Shown: piece by piece, positions 38,211 through 47,866 of the stretch | Numbering within the stretch: position 1 is the first letter of the stretch | Layout: each line of letters starts with the position of its first letter | Assembly (NCBI RefSeq): GCF_947500995.1 | Contig: NZ_CANMUA010000003.1 | Location: 124,001-188,000, forward strand | Direction of reading: 5' to 3' | Origin: an uncultured Serinicoccus sp. | Lineage (GTDB): Bacteria > Actinomycetota > Actinomycetes > Actinomycetales > Dermatophilaceae | Length of the DNA: 64,000 bases | The notes under the pieces: generated by a model | Told to the model about the DNA's origin: nothing | The model's database searches: none | The model's input: the letters and a program-made list of their open reading frames with translations, nothing else | Program-made: the position numbers and the translations under genes

Positions 38211-40913
38211 TCAGAGGCCGTCGACGCGGCTCTCCGGGGCGGTGAGACCCGGGTTGTCCTGGAGGTAGTCCACCAGGTTGGCCAGGTCCTCCGGGCCCCC
38301 GACGACGTTGGTGCCCTCGGTGAAGGCGGTGAAGCTGTCACCACCCTCCTGGAGGAAGTTCAGGGTCGAGACGCGGTAGGTCTCACCCATCTCCAGCGGG
38401 ACGCCGTCCAGCGCCATGTCGCTCACCTTGCTGCCCTCGGGCTGGCTGTCGTCCCAGGTGTAGGTGAAGCCCTCCGAGACGCCCAGCGCGAGGTACTGGC
38501 GGCCGCGGTCGGGGACGTACTGCTGCTCGAGCACGGCCTTGACCTGCTCACCGGTCATGTCGATCGACACGATGATGTTGCCGAACGGCATGACGTTGTA
38601 GGCCTCCTGGTAGGTGACCTCGCCCGCCTCCTCGTCGTTGCTGATCTGGTCGACGAGCAGGCTCGCGCGCACCCCGCCGACGTTCATGAACGAGATCTGG
38701 GCCCCGCCCTCGTCGTCGCCGTCGGTGCCGGCGAGGATCGAGTCGGCGACCAGGTCGGCCATGGGGGTCTCGATGCCGCGGTCACCACCGGCGTCACCGG
38801 TGATGTCCTCGGCGACGGTGCCGACGACCTCGCCCGCGAGGACCTCGGCCCGGGCGACCCAGGTGTCGACGACCTCGGCCATCTCCGGGTCGTCCGCGAT
38901 GGACTGCAGCACCAGGTGGTTGTCGGCGTAGGCCCGGTCGCGGGTCACGTCACCGGAGGTGCGGGAGATGGTCAGCGCGGTCTCGGTGACCACACGGCCG
39001 TACTGGTTGGCGCTGGTCACCAGGCGGTCGGCACCGGCCGGGTCCGGGATCGAGCAGACGTAGGGCTGGTGGGTGTGGCCGGTGACCACGGCGTCGATGG
39101 CCGGGTCGAGGTTCTCGGCGATCTCGACGACCGGACCGGAGATGCCCTCGCACTGGTCGTAGGTGCCGGTCTGGTAGCCACCCTCGTGCAGCAGCACGAC
39201 GATCGACTCGACGCCCTGCTCCCGCAGCGCGGCGGCCTGGGCGTTGGCGGTCTCGACCTCGTCGAGGAAGTCGACGCTCGCGACCCCGCCGGGGCTGACG
39301 AGCGTCGGGGTCTCCTCCAGGGTCATGCCGATGAAACCGACGTCCACGCCGTCGACGGTGCGGACCTCGGTCGCGGGCAGGATGGACTCGCCGGTCTCCT
39401 TGTCCACGACGTTGGCTGCGAGCCACTGGAAGTCGGCCCCGTCGTAGGGCTCGTCACCGAAGCACCCGCGCTCGGGGTGGCAGCCGCCCTCCTGCATGCG
39501 CAGGAGCTCGTCCACACCCTCGTCGAACTCGTGGTTGCCGACGCCGGAGATGTCCAGGCCGGCGACCTCGAGGGTCTCCACCGAGGGCTCGTCCTGGAAG
39601 AGGCCGGACACGAAGGTCGACCCGCCGATGAGGTCACCCGCGGCCACCGTCAGCGTCTGGTCCTCGAAGGACCGGGTCCGCAGCGCGTCCAGGGTCGAGC
39701 TGAGGTTGACCGCGCCACCGACGAGGTTCTGGTCGGGGTCCTGCTCCTCGTCGAGCGTCCCGTCCTCCTCCTCGATGTGGCCGTGGTAGTCGTTGAACGA
39801 GAGCATCTGCACGACGAGCTCGTCGACCCAGACGGGCAGCCAGGTCTCCAGGGGCGTGGCCACGCCCTCGTCGGAGAGGGCTCCCTCGCCGCCGAAGAGC
39901 ACCAGGCCCTGGGGGGAGAGGCGGTCGAGCGCGCCGACCGTGGGTGCGGGCACCTCCGTGGCGCGGCTCAGCACGAGCGGGCCGCCGTGGTAGGCGGCCA
40001 GCGCCCCGCCGGTGAGCGCGTCCGGGTAGTCCTGGCCGCTGGCGAGGTAGGACACCGAGTCGAACTCGTAGGAGGAGGCCAGCGCCACGGCGGTCTCGTA
40101 GCGGTTGGCGCCGAACACGCGGGTGGTGTCGGGCACCAGGCCGGTGACGGCCTCCACGACGTCGTCGGAGACGGCGCCGGACCCACCGAGGACGACGACC
40201 GACTGCGGCTGCAGCGCAGCGATCGCCTCGGCCGTGCTGGGGCGCAGCTCGTCCGGGTCGGTGAGCAGCATGGGCGCGCCGTCACGCCCGGCGCGGGCAC
40301 CACCGGTGAGCGCGTCCGGGAAGTCGGTCCCGGTGGCGAGGTAGAGCACGGGGAGGCCGGTGGGGAAGAGCCCGGCGATCTCGGCGGAGGTGTCGTAGCG
40401 GTTCTCGCCCGAGACCCGCACCACCTCGGCCCCGAAGCCCTCGAGCTCGGTCTCCACCTCGGCGGAGACGGCCACGGTCCCGCCGACGACGATGATCTGG
40501 CTCGGTGCGAGGTCGGCCAGCGCCTCGGCGGTGGCGCTGGGCAGGGCGTCCTGCTTGGTCAGCAGCATCGGCACCGGGAGCCCGGCGGCCTCGGCGTTGT
40601 CCGGGCGGGACACCCCGCCGGCGGCACCGGCGGAGCCGGAGGGCATCTGCGCGCTGAGCGCGTCAGGGAAGGCCTGTCCGGAGGCGATGACCACGGTGCC
40701 CGTCGCCTCCTCGGGGAAGGCCCGGGCGATCTCGGCGGCGGTCTCGTAGCGGTCGGTGCCCGCGATGCGGTGCACCTGGGTGGGGTCCTCGATCTCGGGT
40801 GCCGTGGGCAGGCTGGGCGCGCTCGTCGCGGCGGCTGCACCGCCACCGACGAGGGCGACCGCTGCGCCGACGGCCACGAGGCCACGACGTGCGGAAGGGG
40901 TTCGGGGGGACAT
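38211..40913 (-). CDS. Exported 5'-nucleotidase/cyclic phosphodiesterase with N-terminal cell-wall-binding repeats
   Basis: 900 residues. Signal peptide (1-30), three CWB2-type cell-wall-binding repeats (about 47-340; each with a R(I/V)xGxxRYxTA start and VVVLGG-like end), then a metallophosphatase domain (MLSFNDYHGHIE, GVGNHEFDEG, TGHTHQPYV metal ligands) and the C-terminal 5'-nucleotidase domain (IETPMADLVADSI, MPFGNIIVSIDMTG). It should hydrolyse nucleotides at the cell surface for phosphate or nucleoside scavenging. ATG 40913 has GAGGAG about ten bases upstream; ATG 40931 is an alternative. Confidence 0.92.
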   Translation of the reverse strand: MSPRTPSARRGLVAVGAAVALVGGGAAAATSAPSLPTAPEIEDPTQVHRIAGTDRYETAAEIARAFPEEATGTVVIASGQAFPDALSAQMPSGSAGAAGGVSRPDNAEAAGLPVPMLLTKQDALPSATAEALADLAPSQIIVVGGTVAVSAEVETELEGFGAEVVRVSGENRYDTSAEIAGLFPTGLPVLYLATGTDFPDALTGGARAGRDGAPMLLTDPDELRPSTAEAIAALQPQSVVVLGGSGAVSDDVVEAVTGLVPDTTRVFGANRYETAVALASSYEFDSVSYLASGQDYPDALTGGALAAYHGGPLVLSRATEVPAPTVGALDRLSPQGLVLFGGEGALSDEGVATPLETWLPVWVDELVVQMLSFNDYHGHIEEEDGTLDEEQDPDQNLVGGAVNLSSTLDALRTRSFEDQTLTVAAGDLIGGSTFVSGLFQDEPSVETLEVAGLDISGVGNHEFDEGVDELLRMQEGGCHPERGCFGDEPYDGADFQWLAANVVDKETGESILPATEVRTVDGVDVGFIGMTLEETPTLVSPGGVASVDFLDEVETANAQAAALREQGVESIVVLLHEGGYQTGTYDQCEGISGPVVEIAENLDPAIDAVVTGHTHQPYVCSIPDPAGADRLVTSANQYGRVVTETALTISRTSGDVTRDRAYADNHLVLQSIADDPEMAEVVDTWVARAEVLAGEVVGTVAEDITGDAGGDRGIETPMADLVADSILAGTDGDDEGGAQISFMNVGGVRASLLVDQISNDEEAGEVTYQEAYNVMPFGNIIVSIDMTGEQVKAVLEQQYVPDRGRQYLALGVSEGFTYTWDDSQPEGSKVSDMALDGVPLEMGETYRVSTLNFLQEGGDSFTAFTEGTNVVGGPEDLANLVDYLQDNPGLTAPESRVDGL

Positions 40914-41268
40914 GCGTGGTGTTCTCCTCATGAGGGTGTCCGTCGCAGGTTCCTCGGCGAACCCGCCGGAAGCAACGTAGCCCATCGTCGGCCGCCCGCA
41001 CCTGACGAGAAGGTCACGGTCTGGTGAACCCGCGGAGGCACTCCCGTCTGACAGATGGTGCGTGAGGGGAGCATGTGGTCGATGGGGCAGCTGGGGTGAG
41101 ACGGATGACGACTTGGTAAAGAAGCGCTGGTGAGGGGTATCGCCGACGGCGAGGGCGACGTACGCTGAGCGCAGCGCCGGGCCGCCCCACCGAGGTGGTG
41201 GTCGGCGCTCGTCATGCACACGTCAGGTCGCCGCGGCGCCCACGAGACAGGTCAGGGGTCAGGAGTCG
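40914..41268. other. Divergent promoter region with hairpin
   Basis: A 355-base region between two exported-protein genes reading outward. I see no gene in it. It contains a TTGGTA at 41113-41118 with GGTATC 17 bases later that may be a plus-strand promoter, and a structured element at 41173-41209: outer arms AGCGCCG/CGGCGCT and an inner palindrome CCACC-GA-GGTGG (41187-41198). The hairpin could be a leader structure of the gene at 41269. Confidence 0.4.
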
Positions 41269-43148: not shown

Positions 43149-44678
43149 ATGAGCCTCCTACGTCGACGTCGCGGGACCACCGTCCTGGCGTCCGCGCTTC
43201 TCGTGGGCGTCCTCGGCGCCGGGGGCGTGGGCGTGGTGGCGACCTCGGCCGCCGATCCGGGCGCCGAGGGGGAGCCCGGCTGGGCGGAGACGCAGGCGGC
43301 GACGCCGGGTGCGGTCGGGTGGTCCGGGTTGGGGCAGGCCCCCTGCCCCGAGGGCATGACACGGCGGGTGAGCGTGGGCGGCTGGAGCATGGACTCGGGT
43401 GTCCCGCAGGCGAGGTTCAACGACGGCTGGGGTGCGGTGTCCTCCCGGGACGGCGGGGCCGCCCGGGCCGTGGTGTCCGCCGCCGACCCGAGCGACCACT
43501 TCTTCCTGCCCTACGTCAAGGTCTCCGTCGACCGCCGCACCATGCTCGCCCTGTCCACCCGCGGCACCCAGGGCAACTCCGCGCACACCCGCGTCCAGAT
43601 GAACTCCGTGGACCTCCGGGTCTACGCCGGGTCGTCCTGGGACGGGCGGGTCTACGACGTCACCGCCGCCACCGACGACGAGAACGGCCACCTCGGGACG
43701 TGGTTCGAGCACACCAGCCGGGCCGGGGCCAGCACCCGCTGGGACGTCGACAACGTCCAGGTCTACACCTGCCGCGACGCGCCGGTCTCCCGGATCTCCG
43801 GCTCGGACCGGTATGCCTCGGCCGCCCGCATCGCGGCGACGTACCCGGCCGGGGTGCCGGTCGCCTACCTCGCGACGGGCGAGAACTTCCCGGACGCCAT
43901 CGGCGCCTCGGCCCTGGCGGCCCAGCGGGACGCGCCCGTGCTGCTCACCCGCTCGGACCGCCTGCCCGGCGCGACCGCGGCCCAGCTGGACCGGCTCGCG
44001 CCGCAGCGCCTCGTGGTGCTCGGCGGCACCGGCGCGGTCAGCTCGACGGTCGCCCGGGAGGCCGGGGCCTACGCCGGCACGACGAGCCGGGTGACCGGCG
44101 CCACCCGCTACGACGTCTCGGCGGCGCTGGCCGAGACCTACTCCCCGGGTCGGCCGGTCCTCTACGTCGCCAGCGGGGCCAACTTCCCCGACGCCCTGGC
44201 CATCGGTGCCCTCGCGGGCGACCAGGGGGCCCCGGTCCTCCTCACCCCGACCGGTGGGCTCCACCCCGCGGTCGAGGAGCAGATCGCCCGGCTCGACCCA
44301 GGACGGATCGTCGTGGTCGGCGGCCCGGTCGCGGTGTCCGACACCGTGGTCGGCCAGCTGCGCCGGCACACCTCGGGCTCGGTGACCCGCCTCACCGGCA
44401 GCAACCGGTATGCCGTGGCGGCGGCCGTCGCCCGCCAGTTCGACGAGGAGCCGGCCCGCGTCTACGTCGCCACCGGCACCGCGTTCCCGGACGCCCTCGT
44501 GGGTGCCGCGCGCGCGGGCAGCCAGGGGGTGCCCGTCGTCCTCACCCGGCAGGACCAGCTCGTCAGCGACGCGCGCTCGGCGTTGCAGGCGCTGGACCCG
44601 CTGCGGGGGGTCCTGCTCGGCGGACAGGTCGCGCTGAGTTCGGTCGTCATGGACCAGGTCGGCGCGCAGGTCGGCTGA
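43149..44678 (+). CDS. Exported protein with three C-terminal cell-wall-binding (CWB2) repeats
   Basis: 509 residues. Signal segment (about 8-33), an N-terminal domain of unknown fold (about 55-205) with few cysteines, then three CWB2 repeats (about 213-310, 311-405, 406-505), each beginning like RISGSDRYASAARIA and containing AYLATGENFPDAIGA and VVLGGTGAVS. These repeats attach proteins non-covalently to wall polymers. The gene starts 14 bases after the VanY-like gene, so the two are probably co-transcribed. Function of the N-terminal domain unknown. Confidence 0.85.
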   Translation: MSLLRRRRGTTVLASALLVGVLGAGGVGVVATSAADPGAEGEPGWAETQAATPGAVGWSGLGQAPCPEGMTRRVSVGGWSMDSGVPQARFNDGWGAVSSRDGGAARAVVSAADPSDHFFLPYVKVSVDRRTMLALSTRGTQGNSAHTRVQMNSVDLRVYAGSSWDGRVYDVTAATDDENGHLGTWFEHTSRAGASTRWDVDNVQVYTCRDAPVSRISGSDRYASAARIAATYPAGVPVAYLATGENFPDAIGASALAAQRDAPVLLTRSDRLPGATAAQLDRLAPQRLVVLGGTGAVSSTVAREAGAYAGTTSRVTGATRYDVSAALAETYSPGRPVLYVASGANFPDALAIGALAGDQGAPVLLTPTGGLHPAVEEQIARLDPGRIVVVGGPVAVSDTVVGQLRRHTSGSVTRLTGSNRYAVAAAVARQFDEEPARVYVATGTAFPDALVGAARAGSQGVPVVLTRQDQLVSDARSALQALDPLRGVLLGGQVALSSVVMDQVGAQVG

Positions 44679-44687
44679 GGAGGACGC

Positions 44688-45404
44688 ATGCAGACCGAGC
44701 ACCGACTGCTCTCCGGTGAGGGCGTGCGCGTCGACGTCCCGGACGCCACCGCCCTGCCGGGGGGCACGGCGCTGGCGGTCCTGGCCCTGGAGGGCGCCGG
44801 CCAGCTGGAGGTCACCTCCGGCGCCGAGGCCGACCTCGGCTTCTACCTCGAGGTGACCGGGACCTCCCTGCAGCGGGAGGTCGCGCTGCGCGACGGCCGG
44901 TCGTTGCGCTACGGCCGGCTCGGTGGCGACCCGCAGCAGGGTCTGGGCTGGTCGGTCGCGGTCGGGGACCACCACGTCTACGGCTCGACCGTGCCGGCCA
45001 TGGACGTCGAGGCCCTCAGCGGCTACCTCGCCGACGTGGACCTCCGGGAGGACCGGCTGGGCCCGGTGCTCACCCCCGCCGGCCGGACGAGCTGGTCGCC
45101 CTACCGCACGCAGACCCTCGCCCAGGTGGTCGAGCTGGGCGGGACGGTCGGGTCCGACGACGGGGGGACCCCGGGCTACCTCCTCGACATCCGGCGGGCC
45201 CGCACCGGTCAGCTGCAGAGCGGCCGCTCCTCCGGGGCGCCCGTGCGGGGCGGGCTGCTGTCCCGGTCCTCGGGCGAGGAGCGTCACCCGTACGCCGTCC
45301 TCGAGGGCGCCGACTTTGTGACCTACGGCATGCCGGGCAGCGAGGGGGTCGTCGACGCGGTCATCGCCTCGATGGCCGAGGTCGCCGTGGAGCTGGTCCG
45401 GTGA
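44688..45404 (+). CDS. Unknown protein, first gene of the Mau-like cluster
   Basis: 238 residues, no signal peptide, membrane helix or cysteine. It looks like an alpha/beta or beta-rich cytoplasmic protein (LGFYLEVTGTSLQREVALRD, GWSVAVGDHHVYGSTVPAM, DIRRARTGQLQSGRSSGAPV). I recognise no family. Its TGA overlaps the GTG of the MauE-like gene (GTGA at 45401), and all following genes overlap in the same way, so it is an integral part of the cluster. It is too short and lacks the propeller features of MauB heavy chains. Confidence 0.75.
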   Translation: MQTEHRLLSGEGVRVDVPDATALPGGTALAVLALEGAGQLEVTSGAEADLGFYLEVTGTSLQREVALRDGRSLRYGRLGGDPQQGLGWSVAVGDHHVYGSTVPAMDVEALSGYLADVDLREDRLGPVLTPAGRTSWSPYRTQTLAQVVELGGTVGSDDGGTPGYLLDIRRARTGQLQSGRSSGAPVRGGLLSRSSGEERHPYAVLEGADFVTYGMPGSEGVVDAVIASMAEVAVELVR

Positions 45405-45973
45405 GCGTCCTCGCGGTGGCGAGCGCCTGGGCCGTCGGCCTCGTGCTGCTCGTCTCCGGGCTGTCCCACGTCCGGGCGCCCCGGTCGACGCAGGCCGCGC
45501 TCTCGGCCCACGACCTGCTGCCCTCCTCCACCCACCGGTGGCTGGCCCTCGTGCTGGGCCCCGTCGAGCTGGTGCTGGCCGTGGCCCTGCTCGCGGGCGG
45601 GCTCGGCGTGCTCGGCGGTCCGGTGGCGCGGGTCCTCGGGCTGGGTGCCGCCCTGCTCTGCCTGGGCTTCGCGGCCTACCTCCGGGTGGTCCTGCGGCGC
45701 ACCGCCGGGCAGGAGGTGCCCTGCGGCTGCGGGCTCGGCGCCACCCCGGTCACCGGCTGGAGCGTGGTGCGGGCCGGGCTGCTGGGCGCCCTCGCGCTCG
45801 CCGCCGTGACGCTCCCGACCGGTCCGTGGACCGCCCTCCCCGGCGCACCGGTCTGGGCCCAGGCCGTCGTGGCCGCAGCCGGGGGGCTGGCGCTCGCCGT
45901 GGGCACGGCTGCCCTGCCCGCCGCCCGGGCCGTCCCCGCCGGGCTCACCACCCTCACCGGGGCCGCGCGATGA
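45401..45973 (+). CDS. MauE/DoxX-like redox-associated membrane protein
   Basis: 190 residues with about five to six helices. The pattern GLVLLVSGLSHVRAPRSTQA, LGPVELVLAVALLAGG and the cysteine pair in VPCGCGLGATPV matches the MauE family, needed in methylamine-utilising bacteria for disulfide formation in the small subunit of methylamine dehydrogenase. GTG start overlaps the upstream TGA and its own TGA overlaps the MauD-like ATG. It acts in the membrane, probably relaying electrons or disulfides with the MauD-like protein. Confidence 0.82.
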   Translation: MSVLAVASAWAVGLVLLVSGLSHVRAPRSTQAALSAHDLLPSSTHRWLALVLGPVELVLAVALLAGGLGVLGGPVARVLGLGAALLCLGFAAYLRVVLRRTAGQEVPCGCGLGATPVTGWSVVRAGLLGALALAAVTLPTGPWTALPGAPVWAQAVVAAAGGLALAVGTAALPAARAVPAGLTTLTGAAR

Positions 45974-46563
45974 GCTTCACCGCGTCCGCCCTCGTGCTCG
46001 CCTTCGTCGCCATCGCGCTGCTGGCCCTGGGGCTGGCCGGTCTGCTGCGGCAGGTCAGCCTGCTCACCCAGCAGCTGGACGGCGGGGTGGCGGCACCGCA
46101 CCCGGGCGCCGGGGCGCGGACCACCCGCGAGCTGGTGGGGTTCCGGGTGCCCGGGGACCTGGCGGCCGAGCTCGTCGACCCGGCCGCACCGCATACCCTC
46201 CTGGCCTTCGTCTCACCCGGGTGCAGCTCGTGCTCGCTGACCCTGAGGGCGCTCGCCGCGGACCCGCAGGTCGCGGACGGGTCGGTGGCGCTGACCCTCG
46301 TCTCGGCGGGCTCCTGCGAGCCCGGCCTGCGGGACGCCGAGGGGTCCCTGCGGCTGCGCTGCCTGCCGCAGGGCCGGACGGTGATGGACCGGCTGGCCGT
46401 CCCGGCCACCCCCTACCTGGCGCTGCTGGACGCCTCCGGCACCCTCCGGGCGGCCCTGCTGCCCGAGGAGGACACCGACCTGGGCGGCTGGCTCCGCCAG
46501 GTGGGCACCACGCTCCAGCAGGCCGCGGCACGACCGTCGACGAGGGAGGACCGCCCGTCATGA
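45970..46563 (+). CDS. MauD-like membrane-anchored thioredoxin-fold protein
   Basis: 197 residues: one N-terminal helix (about 5-30) then a thioredoxin-like domain with the active-site motif FVSPGCSSCSLT (Cys-Ser-Ser-Cys) and the cis-Pro segment VPATPYLALLD. This is the MauD arrangement, a thiol-disulfide oxidoreductase used to fold a multi-disulfide exported subunit. Two extra cysteines (SCEP and LRCLP) occur between. It overlaps the Tat-substrate gene by four bases, pointing to that protein as its client. Confidence 0.85.
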   Translation: MSFTASALVLAFVAIALLALGLAGLLRQVSLLTQQLDGGVAAPHPGAGARTTRELVGFRVPGDLAAELVDPAAPHTLLAFVSPGCSSCSLTLRALAADPQVADGSVALTLVSAGSCEPGLRDAEGSLRLRCLPQGRTVMDRLAVPATPYLALLDASGTLRAALLPEEDTDLGGWLRQVGTTLQQAAARPSTREDRPS

Positions 46564-47072
46564 TGCGCTTCGAGGACCTGCCGGTGGCCGACACCGGCCG
46601 GCTACGGGACCGGCTGCGGGAGCGGCCCAGCCGTCGCGGCTTCCTGGCCCGCGTGCTGGGTGCGGGGACGGCGGTCGGTGTCGGGTCGCTGGCGCTGGTC
46701 AACCGCGGCGGCAGCCAGGTGCGAGCCCAGGCCGCCTACTTCCTGGACTACACCGACACCTCGACCGGGCCGTGCGCCACCTACGCCCGCGACCACACCG
46801 AGAACGGCATCCAGTGCGGTCCCTCACCCATGTGCCGTGACGGGTCCTGCTGCTGGAAGTACCGCTCGGGTGCCGGCAACGTCGTCGCGTGGCACAAGAA
46901 CGGGCCGGGCGTCGACCGCTACTACACCCACCGGCCGGACGACTGCTGGGGCGGCGTCTACGACTCCTGGCACTGGAAGTTCAGCGACGGCCGGACCTAC
47001 CGCTGCTCCGACGGCTGGACCTGCTCCGGCTCCGGCTCCTGCGTCGCGACGATCTGCCCGTGGGCGATCTAG
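46560..47072 (+). CDS. Tat-exported Cys- and Trp-rich protein, MauA-like in layout
   Basis: 170 residues. A twin-arginine signal (PSRRGFLARVLGAG, residues about 23-50, cleavage near VRAQA) is followed by about 113 mature residues with 10 Cys and 7 Trp, including CCWKY, DDCWGG, SWHWKF, DGWTCSGSGSC and CPW at the end. Export folded or in complex via Tat, many cysteines and adjacent MauE/MauD-like genes mirror the methylamine dehydrogenase light chain, whose tryptophans form TTQ. Sequence similarity to MauA is not convincing by eye, and no heavy chain is present. It may be a new disulfide-rich redox or structural protein. Confidence 0.75.
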   Translation: MMRFEDLPVADTGRLRDRLRERPSRRGFLARVLGAGTAVGVGSLALVNRGGSQVRAQAAYFLDYTDTSTGPCATYARDHTENGIQCGPSPMCRDGSCCWKYRSGAGNVVAWHKNGPGVDRYYTHRPDDCWGGVYDSWHWKFSDGRTYRCSDGWTCSGSGSCVATICPWAI

Positions 47073-47866
47073 AGGACCCGGACCTGCCGGTCGTGGCGGA
47101 CGCCGCGACCGGGGTCTCCGCGCGCCGCCGCTGGGCGGCCGACCCGTTGCCGCTGCTCCTGCTCCTCGGGGCCGGCGGGCTGGTCTGCCTGGTGCTGCTC
47201 CCGGTGTCCGGTCCGGCGTGGGTCGTCCCGGCCCTCTTCGGGGTGACGGTCGCCGGGGTGGCGCTCTCCGGCTCCACCTGAGGCGTCAACAGCGCGTGGG
47301 CGCTGGTGGCCTCGGTCCGGGGCCGACAACGACAGCTCTCCCTCTGGGGAGCCTTCGCCGCCGGGACGACCCTGGGCGGCGCTGCCACCGGCCTGGGTCT
47401 CGGTGTCCTGTCCGGGCTGGTCAGCCCGGTGCCCGAGCAGGTCCGCCTGGTGCTGCTGGCCGGACTCGTCCTGGCCCTGGTGCTGCTCGACGTGCGCACG
47501 CCCCGGCTGCCGCTGCCGCAGCGCTCGATCCTCATCCCGCAGGAGGTCTTCGCCCGGGGCATGGCCCGCGGGGGGCTGCGCTTCGGCCTGGAGTACGGCT
47601 GCGGGTGGCGGACCCTCGTGCCGTCAGCCGCGGCATACCTCGCCGCGCTGTTCGTCCTGCTCGTCGTGCCGCCGTGGTGGGTCGCCGTCCTCCTGGGCGC
47701 GGCCTTCGGGCTCTCCCGGTCCTGGGCGGTGCTGCTCTGGATCGGCCTGGGTTCACCGGGGTGGCAGACCTTCCTGGCCGGGCACTCGCGCGTCCTCGAG
47801 CGGACCGGCAGCGTGCTCGCCGGGCTGCTGCTGCTCGCGGCGGCCTGGTCGCGGTGGGGCGGATAG
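47060..47866 (+). pseudogene. Multi-helix membrane protein interrupted by an in-frame TGA
   Basis: From GTG 47060 (13-base overlap with the Tat protein gene) a frame codes 73 residues with two helices, ends at TGA 47279-47281, and the same frame continues as GVNSAWALVASVRGR into a 186-residue membrane protein (usable GTG at 47306) ending at 47866. Reading TGA as Trp (one-base change from TGG) gives a continuous 268-residue protein with about six to seven helices, in the position where mau clusters carry MauF, a membrane maturation protein. Either a nonsense mutation, a sequencing error, or two separately started proteins; there is no clear ribosome site before 47306. Confidence 0.6.

Follow-up and report, generated by a model that had tools for sequence, protein, structure and literature searches.

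A Mau-type gene cluster of an uncultured Serinicoccus and its MauF homologue with an in-frame TGA codon, probably read as selenocysteine

The Mau-type cluster and its interrupted fifth gene

The window considered here, a stretch of 64,000 nucleotides from an uncultured Serinicoccus sp., carries on its forward strand a compact cluster of genes related to those of methylamine utilisation (mau). The fifth gene of this cluster is interrupted by a TGA codon. Five open reading frames (ORFs) follow one another, adjacent ones overlapping by a few bases. Gene 1 (44688–45404) encodes a protein of 238 residues, and it is followed by genes for a MauE-type membrane protein with a CxC motif (CGCG; 45401–45973), a MauD-like thioredoxin with a CSSC motif (45970–46563), and a cysteine-rich protein exported by twin-arginine translocation (Tat), which starts at an ATG at 46560 or 46563 and ends at 47072. 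The fifth gene, encoding the protein here called Sec-MauF (Sec, selenocysteine), runs from an inferred GTG start at 47060 to 47866 and, when read through, overlaps the 3' end of the exported-protein gene. The genome lies near Serinicoccus, the three top loci for the exported protein being Serinicoccus records with 96–100% identity.

A first-pass annotation of this DNA had correctly described five slightly overlapping genes, but it began the fifth at 47306 rather than at about 47060, and it left out a gene immediately upstream (43149–44678) for a protein with CWB2 repeats. The ORF at 47306–47866 is in fact only the 3' portion of a gene that spans about 47060–47866 and is interrupted by an in-frame TGA at 47279–47281. 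With this codon read as selenocysteine (U), the peptide around it is ...SGST-U-GVNSAWALVASVR.

The same interruption is encountered in relatives of the gene. Eight of these, on genome contigs, have a TGA at the same site (GST-TGA-G[VL]NSAWAL[VL]ASV), and the gene halves on either side of it are conserved together in these eight loci. Thirteen pairs of relatives were chosen for comparison; of their 131 differences upstream of the TGA, 91 fall at third codon positions, as do 56 of the 91 downstream. This bias on both sides indicates that the two halves change in the manner of coding DNA, in a single reading frame.

A query with the TGA translated as a residue was run against 396 genomes of the phylum and 119 of the family, and a profile search (E <=0.01) gave matches in 53 and 17 genomes, respectively. 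Codons at the site were counted in the fetched regions, with the TGA column masked in the model and TGA translated as X. Seventy-three loci matched, five of them without covering the column; the other 68 have TGA in 62 cases and a cysteine codon, always TGC, in six. When TAA, TAG and TGA were all translated as X, 72 of 74 loci matched (62 with TGA, five with TGC and five not covering the column), and neither TAA nor TAG was found at this column among them. TGA occupies this position also in three relatives of 25–32% identity, and the TGA form of MauF is present in 38 of the 396 sampled genomes of the phylum.

The fifth gene is a homologue of MauF, with TGA as the codon for the one invariant redox residue. 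For comparison, real mau operons were fetched and three annotated MauF proteins were used. In hhalign, 71 family members match these with a probability of 99.7 (E 2.3e-26, 189 columns), while the sub-clade of the window alone reaches E 0.0011 and a probability of 20%. The selenocysteine aligns over the cysteine of STWSPCGYSS, the sole invariant cysteine in all three true MauF proteins, and the Sec/Cys position is the only invariant redox column in an alignment of 23 members. It is the profile match, together with this alignment of Sec over an invariant cysteine, that identifies the gene as a MauF homologue in which selenocysteine replaces cysteine. The first-pass annotation had seen the kinship with MauF, but in a truncated protein whose in-frame TGA it overlooked. 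None of the 23 members has a match in NCBIfam (June 2026) better than E 0.0057. An AlphaFold model of Sec-MauF (predicted local distance difference test, pLDDT, of 66.5) gave uninformative structural relatives.

The family also has a weak similarity to the DsbD/CcdA carriers, which are likewise membrane proteins with a redox residue. DsbD_TM (PF02683) and DsbD_2 (PF13386) match four and five of the 23 members (E <=0.01), and one relative, L036, scores 24.1 bits against the DsbD/CcdA transmembrane model, just under the cut-off of 24.9; the Sec-MauF of the window itself matches neither DsbD_TM nor DsbD_2. The membrane domain of DsbD/CcdA requires two redox cysteines, whereas the MauF family has one invariant Cys/Sec column only.

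Selenocysteine machinery and the hairpin after the TGA

The genome encodes what is needed to read the codon as selenocysteine: a tRNA-Sec gene (68.1 bits; gathering threshold 47), followed by selA, selB and selD. The SelA, SelB and SelD proteins exceed their NCBIfam cut-offs; SelB did so when scored as a complete protein and fell short when the genome was scanned. In the set of 396 genomes, the top tRNA-Sec scores are bimodal, and the threshold for presence was placed in the gap. By this measure, tRNA-Sec is present in 37 of 38 genomes with the TGA form, in one of six with the cysteine form, and in 167 of the remaining 352. The association is significant by Fisher's test both for TGA against remaining genomes (p 2e-10) and for TGA against cysteine genomes (p 3e-5). 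The exceptions are G157, a TGA genome in which no tRNA-Sec was found, and G100, a cysteine genome in which it is present.

The TGA is followed by a hairpin resembling a selenocysteine insertion sequence (SECIS), at 47279–47314. The TGA lies inside the outer stem (47279–47284 paired with 47309–47314), and an inner hairpin of six pairs (47290–47295 with 47300–47305; loop GUGG) starts eight bases downstream. Folding of 40 nucleotides in the window gives a z-score of -3.3, and longer stretches give -1.6 and -1.3; for relatives, the 40-nucleotide values range widely (L008 -4.0, L011 -3.3, L012 -1.3, L037 -1.2, L038 -0.2 and L036 0.1).

The inner stem is conserved beyond what the encoded peptide demands. 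In 48 distinct sequences of this region, on average 5.27 of the six pairs can form, and all six form in 31. Shifting the partner strand by one to three bases lowers the mean to 1.56–3.44, and 200 draws of synonymous codons give a mean of 3.61 pairs (never above 4.0) and, on average, 4.9 full stems (at most 10). The six cysteine genes, which encode similar peptides, have 5, 2, 4, 4, 4 and 3 inner pairs, none of them reaching six. The pairs themselves vary on both strands; the fourth and fifth, for example, occur as G-C and as C-G. Some observations speak against a SECIS element: eight of the 48 sequences form fewer than five inner pairs in the standard register, and a G in the loop, as described in many bacterial SECIS elements, occurs in only 29 of them. 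An Rfam scan gave no SECIS match. The combination of an in-frame UGA at a conserved cysteine position, cysteine-containing homologues and a downstream hairpin is also that of known prokaryotic selenoprotein families.

Two other readings of the codon have to be weighed. If the TGA were a true stop, a short membrane peptide would be made, and a second protein would arise by re-initiation from the GTG at 47306. An ORF does exist from that position, and a mechanical ORF list gives the same, but this is hardly credible for a stop that occupies the same homologous position at 62 loci, in relatives of as little as 25% identity, and is never TAA or TAG. Moreover, cysteine is its only replacement, five of the six genomes concerned are without a strong tRNA-Sec, sequence conservation is strong directly after the TGA and ahead of the GTG at 47306, and true MauF spans this point as one chain. 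It is also very unlikely that the TGA is decoded by suppression as some other residue, such as tryptophan or cysteine. Selenium cannot be shown by sequence alone, which favours keeping this reading in mind, but TGA terminates other genes of the cluster (e.g., gene 1 and the MauE gene), and both the co-occurrence with tRNA-Sec and the conserved hairpin indicate the selenocysteine pathway.

Gene neighbourhood and exported proteins

The first-pass annotation had proposed a search for the gene set in other genomes. With the neighbourhood defined as the region within 5.5 kb of the MauF gene, the 62 TGA loci have MauE in 56 cases, MauD in 59 and a cysteine-rich exported protein in 59. Each of the three is found at four of the six cysteine loci. 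The TGA loci lacking an exported protein are L089 (a short contig), L115 and L134. At the last of these (G439:C20:258247-268900), a genome of the same genus has a second MauF copy with TGA; the fetched stretch encodes MauD, but neither MauE nor any known class of exported protein.

The membrane protein encoded at 45401–45973 is of the MauE type, as had been suggested, and meets the PF07291 cut-off with ease (75.9 bits against 27; E 4.6e-21); the CxC motif is kept in all 61 aligned MauE rows. The MauD-like protein does have its CSSC motif, but its match to TIGR02661 is weak (16.1 bits against a cut-off of 188.6; E 0.006), and it is best described as thioredoxin-like with CxxC only. This motif is present in 66 of 70 MauD rows, the remaining four being gapped. 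Gene 1, earlier described as encoding an unknown cytoplasmic protein, gave no match in Pfam and NCBIfam scans, and it was detected in 12 of 73 MauF loci. The upstream gene at 43149–44678, on the same strand, encodes a protein with three cell-wall-binding repeats (PF04122, E 1.1e-50) and is a probable member of the cluster. It occurs together with gene 1, directly upstream, in 10 of 14 loci tested (L005–L012, L133 and L135).

The exported protein has 10 cysteines and seven tryptophans in its mature part by sequence count, and its Tat signal passes the TIGR01409 cut-off (17.1 bits against 16.7), both in line with the first-pass annotation. Its relatives occur in eight loci, and the 10 cysteines are invariant across seven aligned rows. 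Among the proteins scanned, it is the only one to pass the Tat cut-off; a twin-arginine stretch is visible by eye in most of the exported proteins printed. These proteins fall into classes that cannot be joined by sequence. The class of the window comprises 16 loci, a class with CPPGS-VAGWWK and FRYGQCN 34 loci, and a class with GHTYTTGSCPHP and GGWSRCC 11 loci, and there are smaller classes besides. The AlphaFold model of the window's protein is unusable (pLDDT 43.9).

Two proteins of the CPPGS-VAGWWK class were scanned, and LGFP repeats were found in both and CWB2 repeats in one. Together with the CWB2 gene upstream of the cluster, these repeats indicate a cell-surface destination, and the exported clients are probably cell-surface proteins. 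At one locus, L107 (G258), the cysteine-rich domain is fused with LGFP and CWB2 repeats, while the window keeps its cysteine-rich and CWB2 proteins separate. At another, L127 (G040), an exported protein with 22 cysteines within 90 residues is encoded directly upstream of the TGA-containing MauF gene.

Elsewhere in the same genome there are three more MauE-like matches, L001, L002 and L004 (98.6, 81.6 and 23.3 bits). L001 also encodes a thioredoxin-like protein with CPFC, which is DsbA-like by eye. A long ORF on the opposite strand of the window (38211–41219) looks exported and presumably has CWB2-like repeats and a 5'-nucleotidase character, as judged by eye.

Proposed function of the cluster and its wider meaning

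The cluster is very likely a selenocysteine-dependent thiol redox module of the Mau type, which serves a disulfide-rich exported protein. The exported protein would cross the membrane by the Tat pathway and be bridged outside by up to five disulfides. MauD, through its CxxC motif, would exchange disulfides with it, and the membrane proteins MauE and MauF would relay electrons to or from MauD. In such a relay, the selenocysteine of MauF may form a transient Se-S bond with a cysteine of MauE or MauD. The finished protein would then act at the cell wall.

A resemblance to the mau operon raises the question of whether the exported protein might instead be a MauA-like subunit that forms tryptophan tryptophylquinone (TTQ), or a similar tryptophan cross-link, and is matured by the cluster. 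The operon of Paracoccus denitrificans (mauFBEDA, amicyanin, mauJ and mauG; NC_008688, L147) likewise combines MauE, MauD and MauF homologues with a cysteine-rich exported protein. In favour of such a cofactor are this mau-like gene set, the seven tryptophans of the exported protein and a stretch, CPpGt...W...C, in which some client classes read like MauA. The present cluster differs from the operon in the selenocysteine of its MauF and in that no dehydrogenase was found: the first-pass annotation had seen neither heavy chain nor MauG in the cluster, and the whole genome gave no match to PF06433 (MauB), PF02975 (MauA) or PF03150 (MauG), and its MauF gene does not belong to an operon with methylamine dehydrogenase subunits. 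The 14 control genomes were positive for PF03150 only, and not for PF06433 or PF02975; in controls of our own, the PF06433 search was positive in the P. denitrificans plasmid and all three models recognised its proteins. Nor is the exported protein demonstrably MauA, which agrees with the earlier failure to align the two. It has no Pfam match to PF02975, and hhalign against MauA gives E 0.36 for the window class and E 0.039 and 0.048 for the larger class, with probabilities of 0.2–1.3%, which is not significant. The number and place of the tryptophans vary among client classes, and no conserved pair common to them is visible, so that the earlier hint at tryptophan-derived chemistry finds no backing. 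With no match to the dehydrogenase or MauG, no significant similarity to MauA and no common tryptophan pair, a TTQ-type cofactor is unsupported, and this reading is unlikely. What does stand from the first-pass annotation is a distinct Mau-type kit with its own cysteine-rich exported client. Separately, the exported protein of L124 (G287) has a cysteine pattern resembling MauA (C.C.GG...CP.G...W...RDC), with a non-significant E of 0.61 against 3c75_L.

For the thiol redox module itself, the direction of electron flow can be argued either way. DsbD transmembrane systems are reductive in known cases. Because relatives of the MauF protein match DsbD transmembrane models, a mostly reductive flow, with proof-reading of disulfides in the style of DsbD/DsbC, is slightly favoured over an oxidative one. 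The same matches count against an oxidative module, in which MauE and the selenocysteine of MauF would reoxidise MauD, and MauD would make the disulfides in a DsbA/DsbB- or VKOR-like manner. This remains a plausible, if less favoured, arrangement, given the many cysteines of the clients and a role of MauE in disulfide formation speculated upon in the consulted part of a study of candidate clusters for ribosomally synthesised and post-translationally modified peptides (RiPPs) (PMC7794033).

That study, as far as its searched text goes, describes decRiPPter candidate clusters from Streptomyces with mauE homologues (in one family also mauD) and a predicted precursor peptide (PMC7794033). The mauE homologues are common to those clusters and the present one; unlike here, MauF is absent from the text searched. 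The mauE/mauD families of Streptomyces may be relatives of the Sec-MauF module rather than RiPP clusters.

Sec-MauF looks like a widespread selenoprotein family that has so far not been listed. Neither MauF nor any Mau protein or SPUG motif appears among the 119 prokaryotic selenoprotein families or subfamilies in Table 1 of a 2026 survey (PMC13188914), the part of it considered here. Full-text searches that paired selenoprotein with MauF, and selenocysteine with methylamine utilization or with new families, gave nothing relevant among open-licence papers, and an earlier report elsewhere is possible. For the literature since 2024, neither MauE nor MauF occurs in any of the matches listed for these two proteins together with selenoprotein or selenocysteine. 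A term search also covered parts of PMC12013277 and PMC9312934, and in the latter it found no passage.

Selenoprotein genes hidden by a UGA are easily overlooked in annotation, and normal gene-finding misses Sec-MauF. The selenocysteine points to a single position as the chemical centre of the MauF protein, for which the sources consulted give no assigned activity, so that the function of MauE, MauD and MauF can be tested directly. A connection of selenium with disulfide formation in exported proteins bound to the cell wall is suggested as well, and none was met in the literature searched. It is possible, though still a tentative proposal, that Actinomycetota possess a separate selenium-dependent folding pathway in which MauE, MauD and Sec-MauF serve cysteine-rich Tat substrates in general that are bound for the cell wall; this pathway would have several unrelated client families, and may be one main reason for keeping the selenocysteine machinery.

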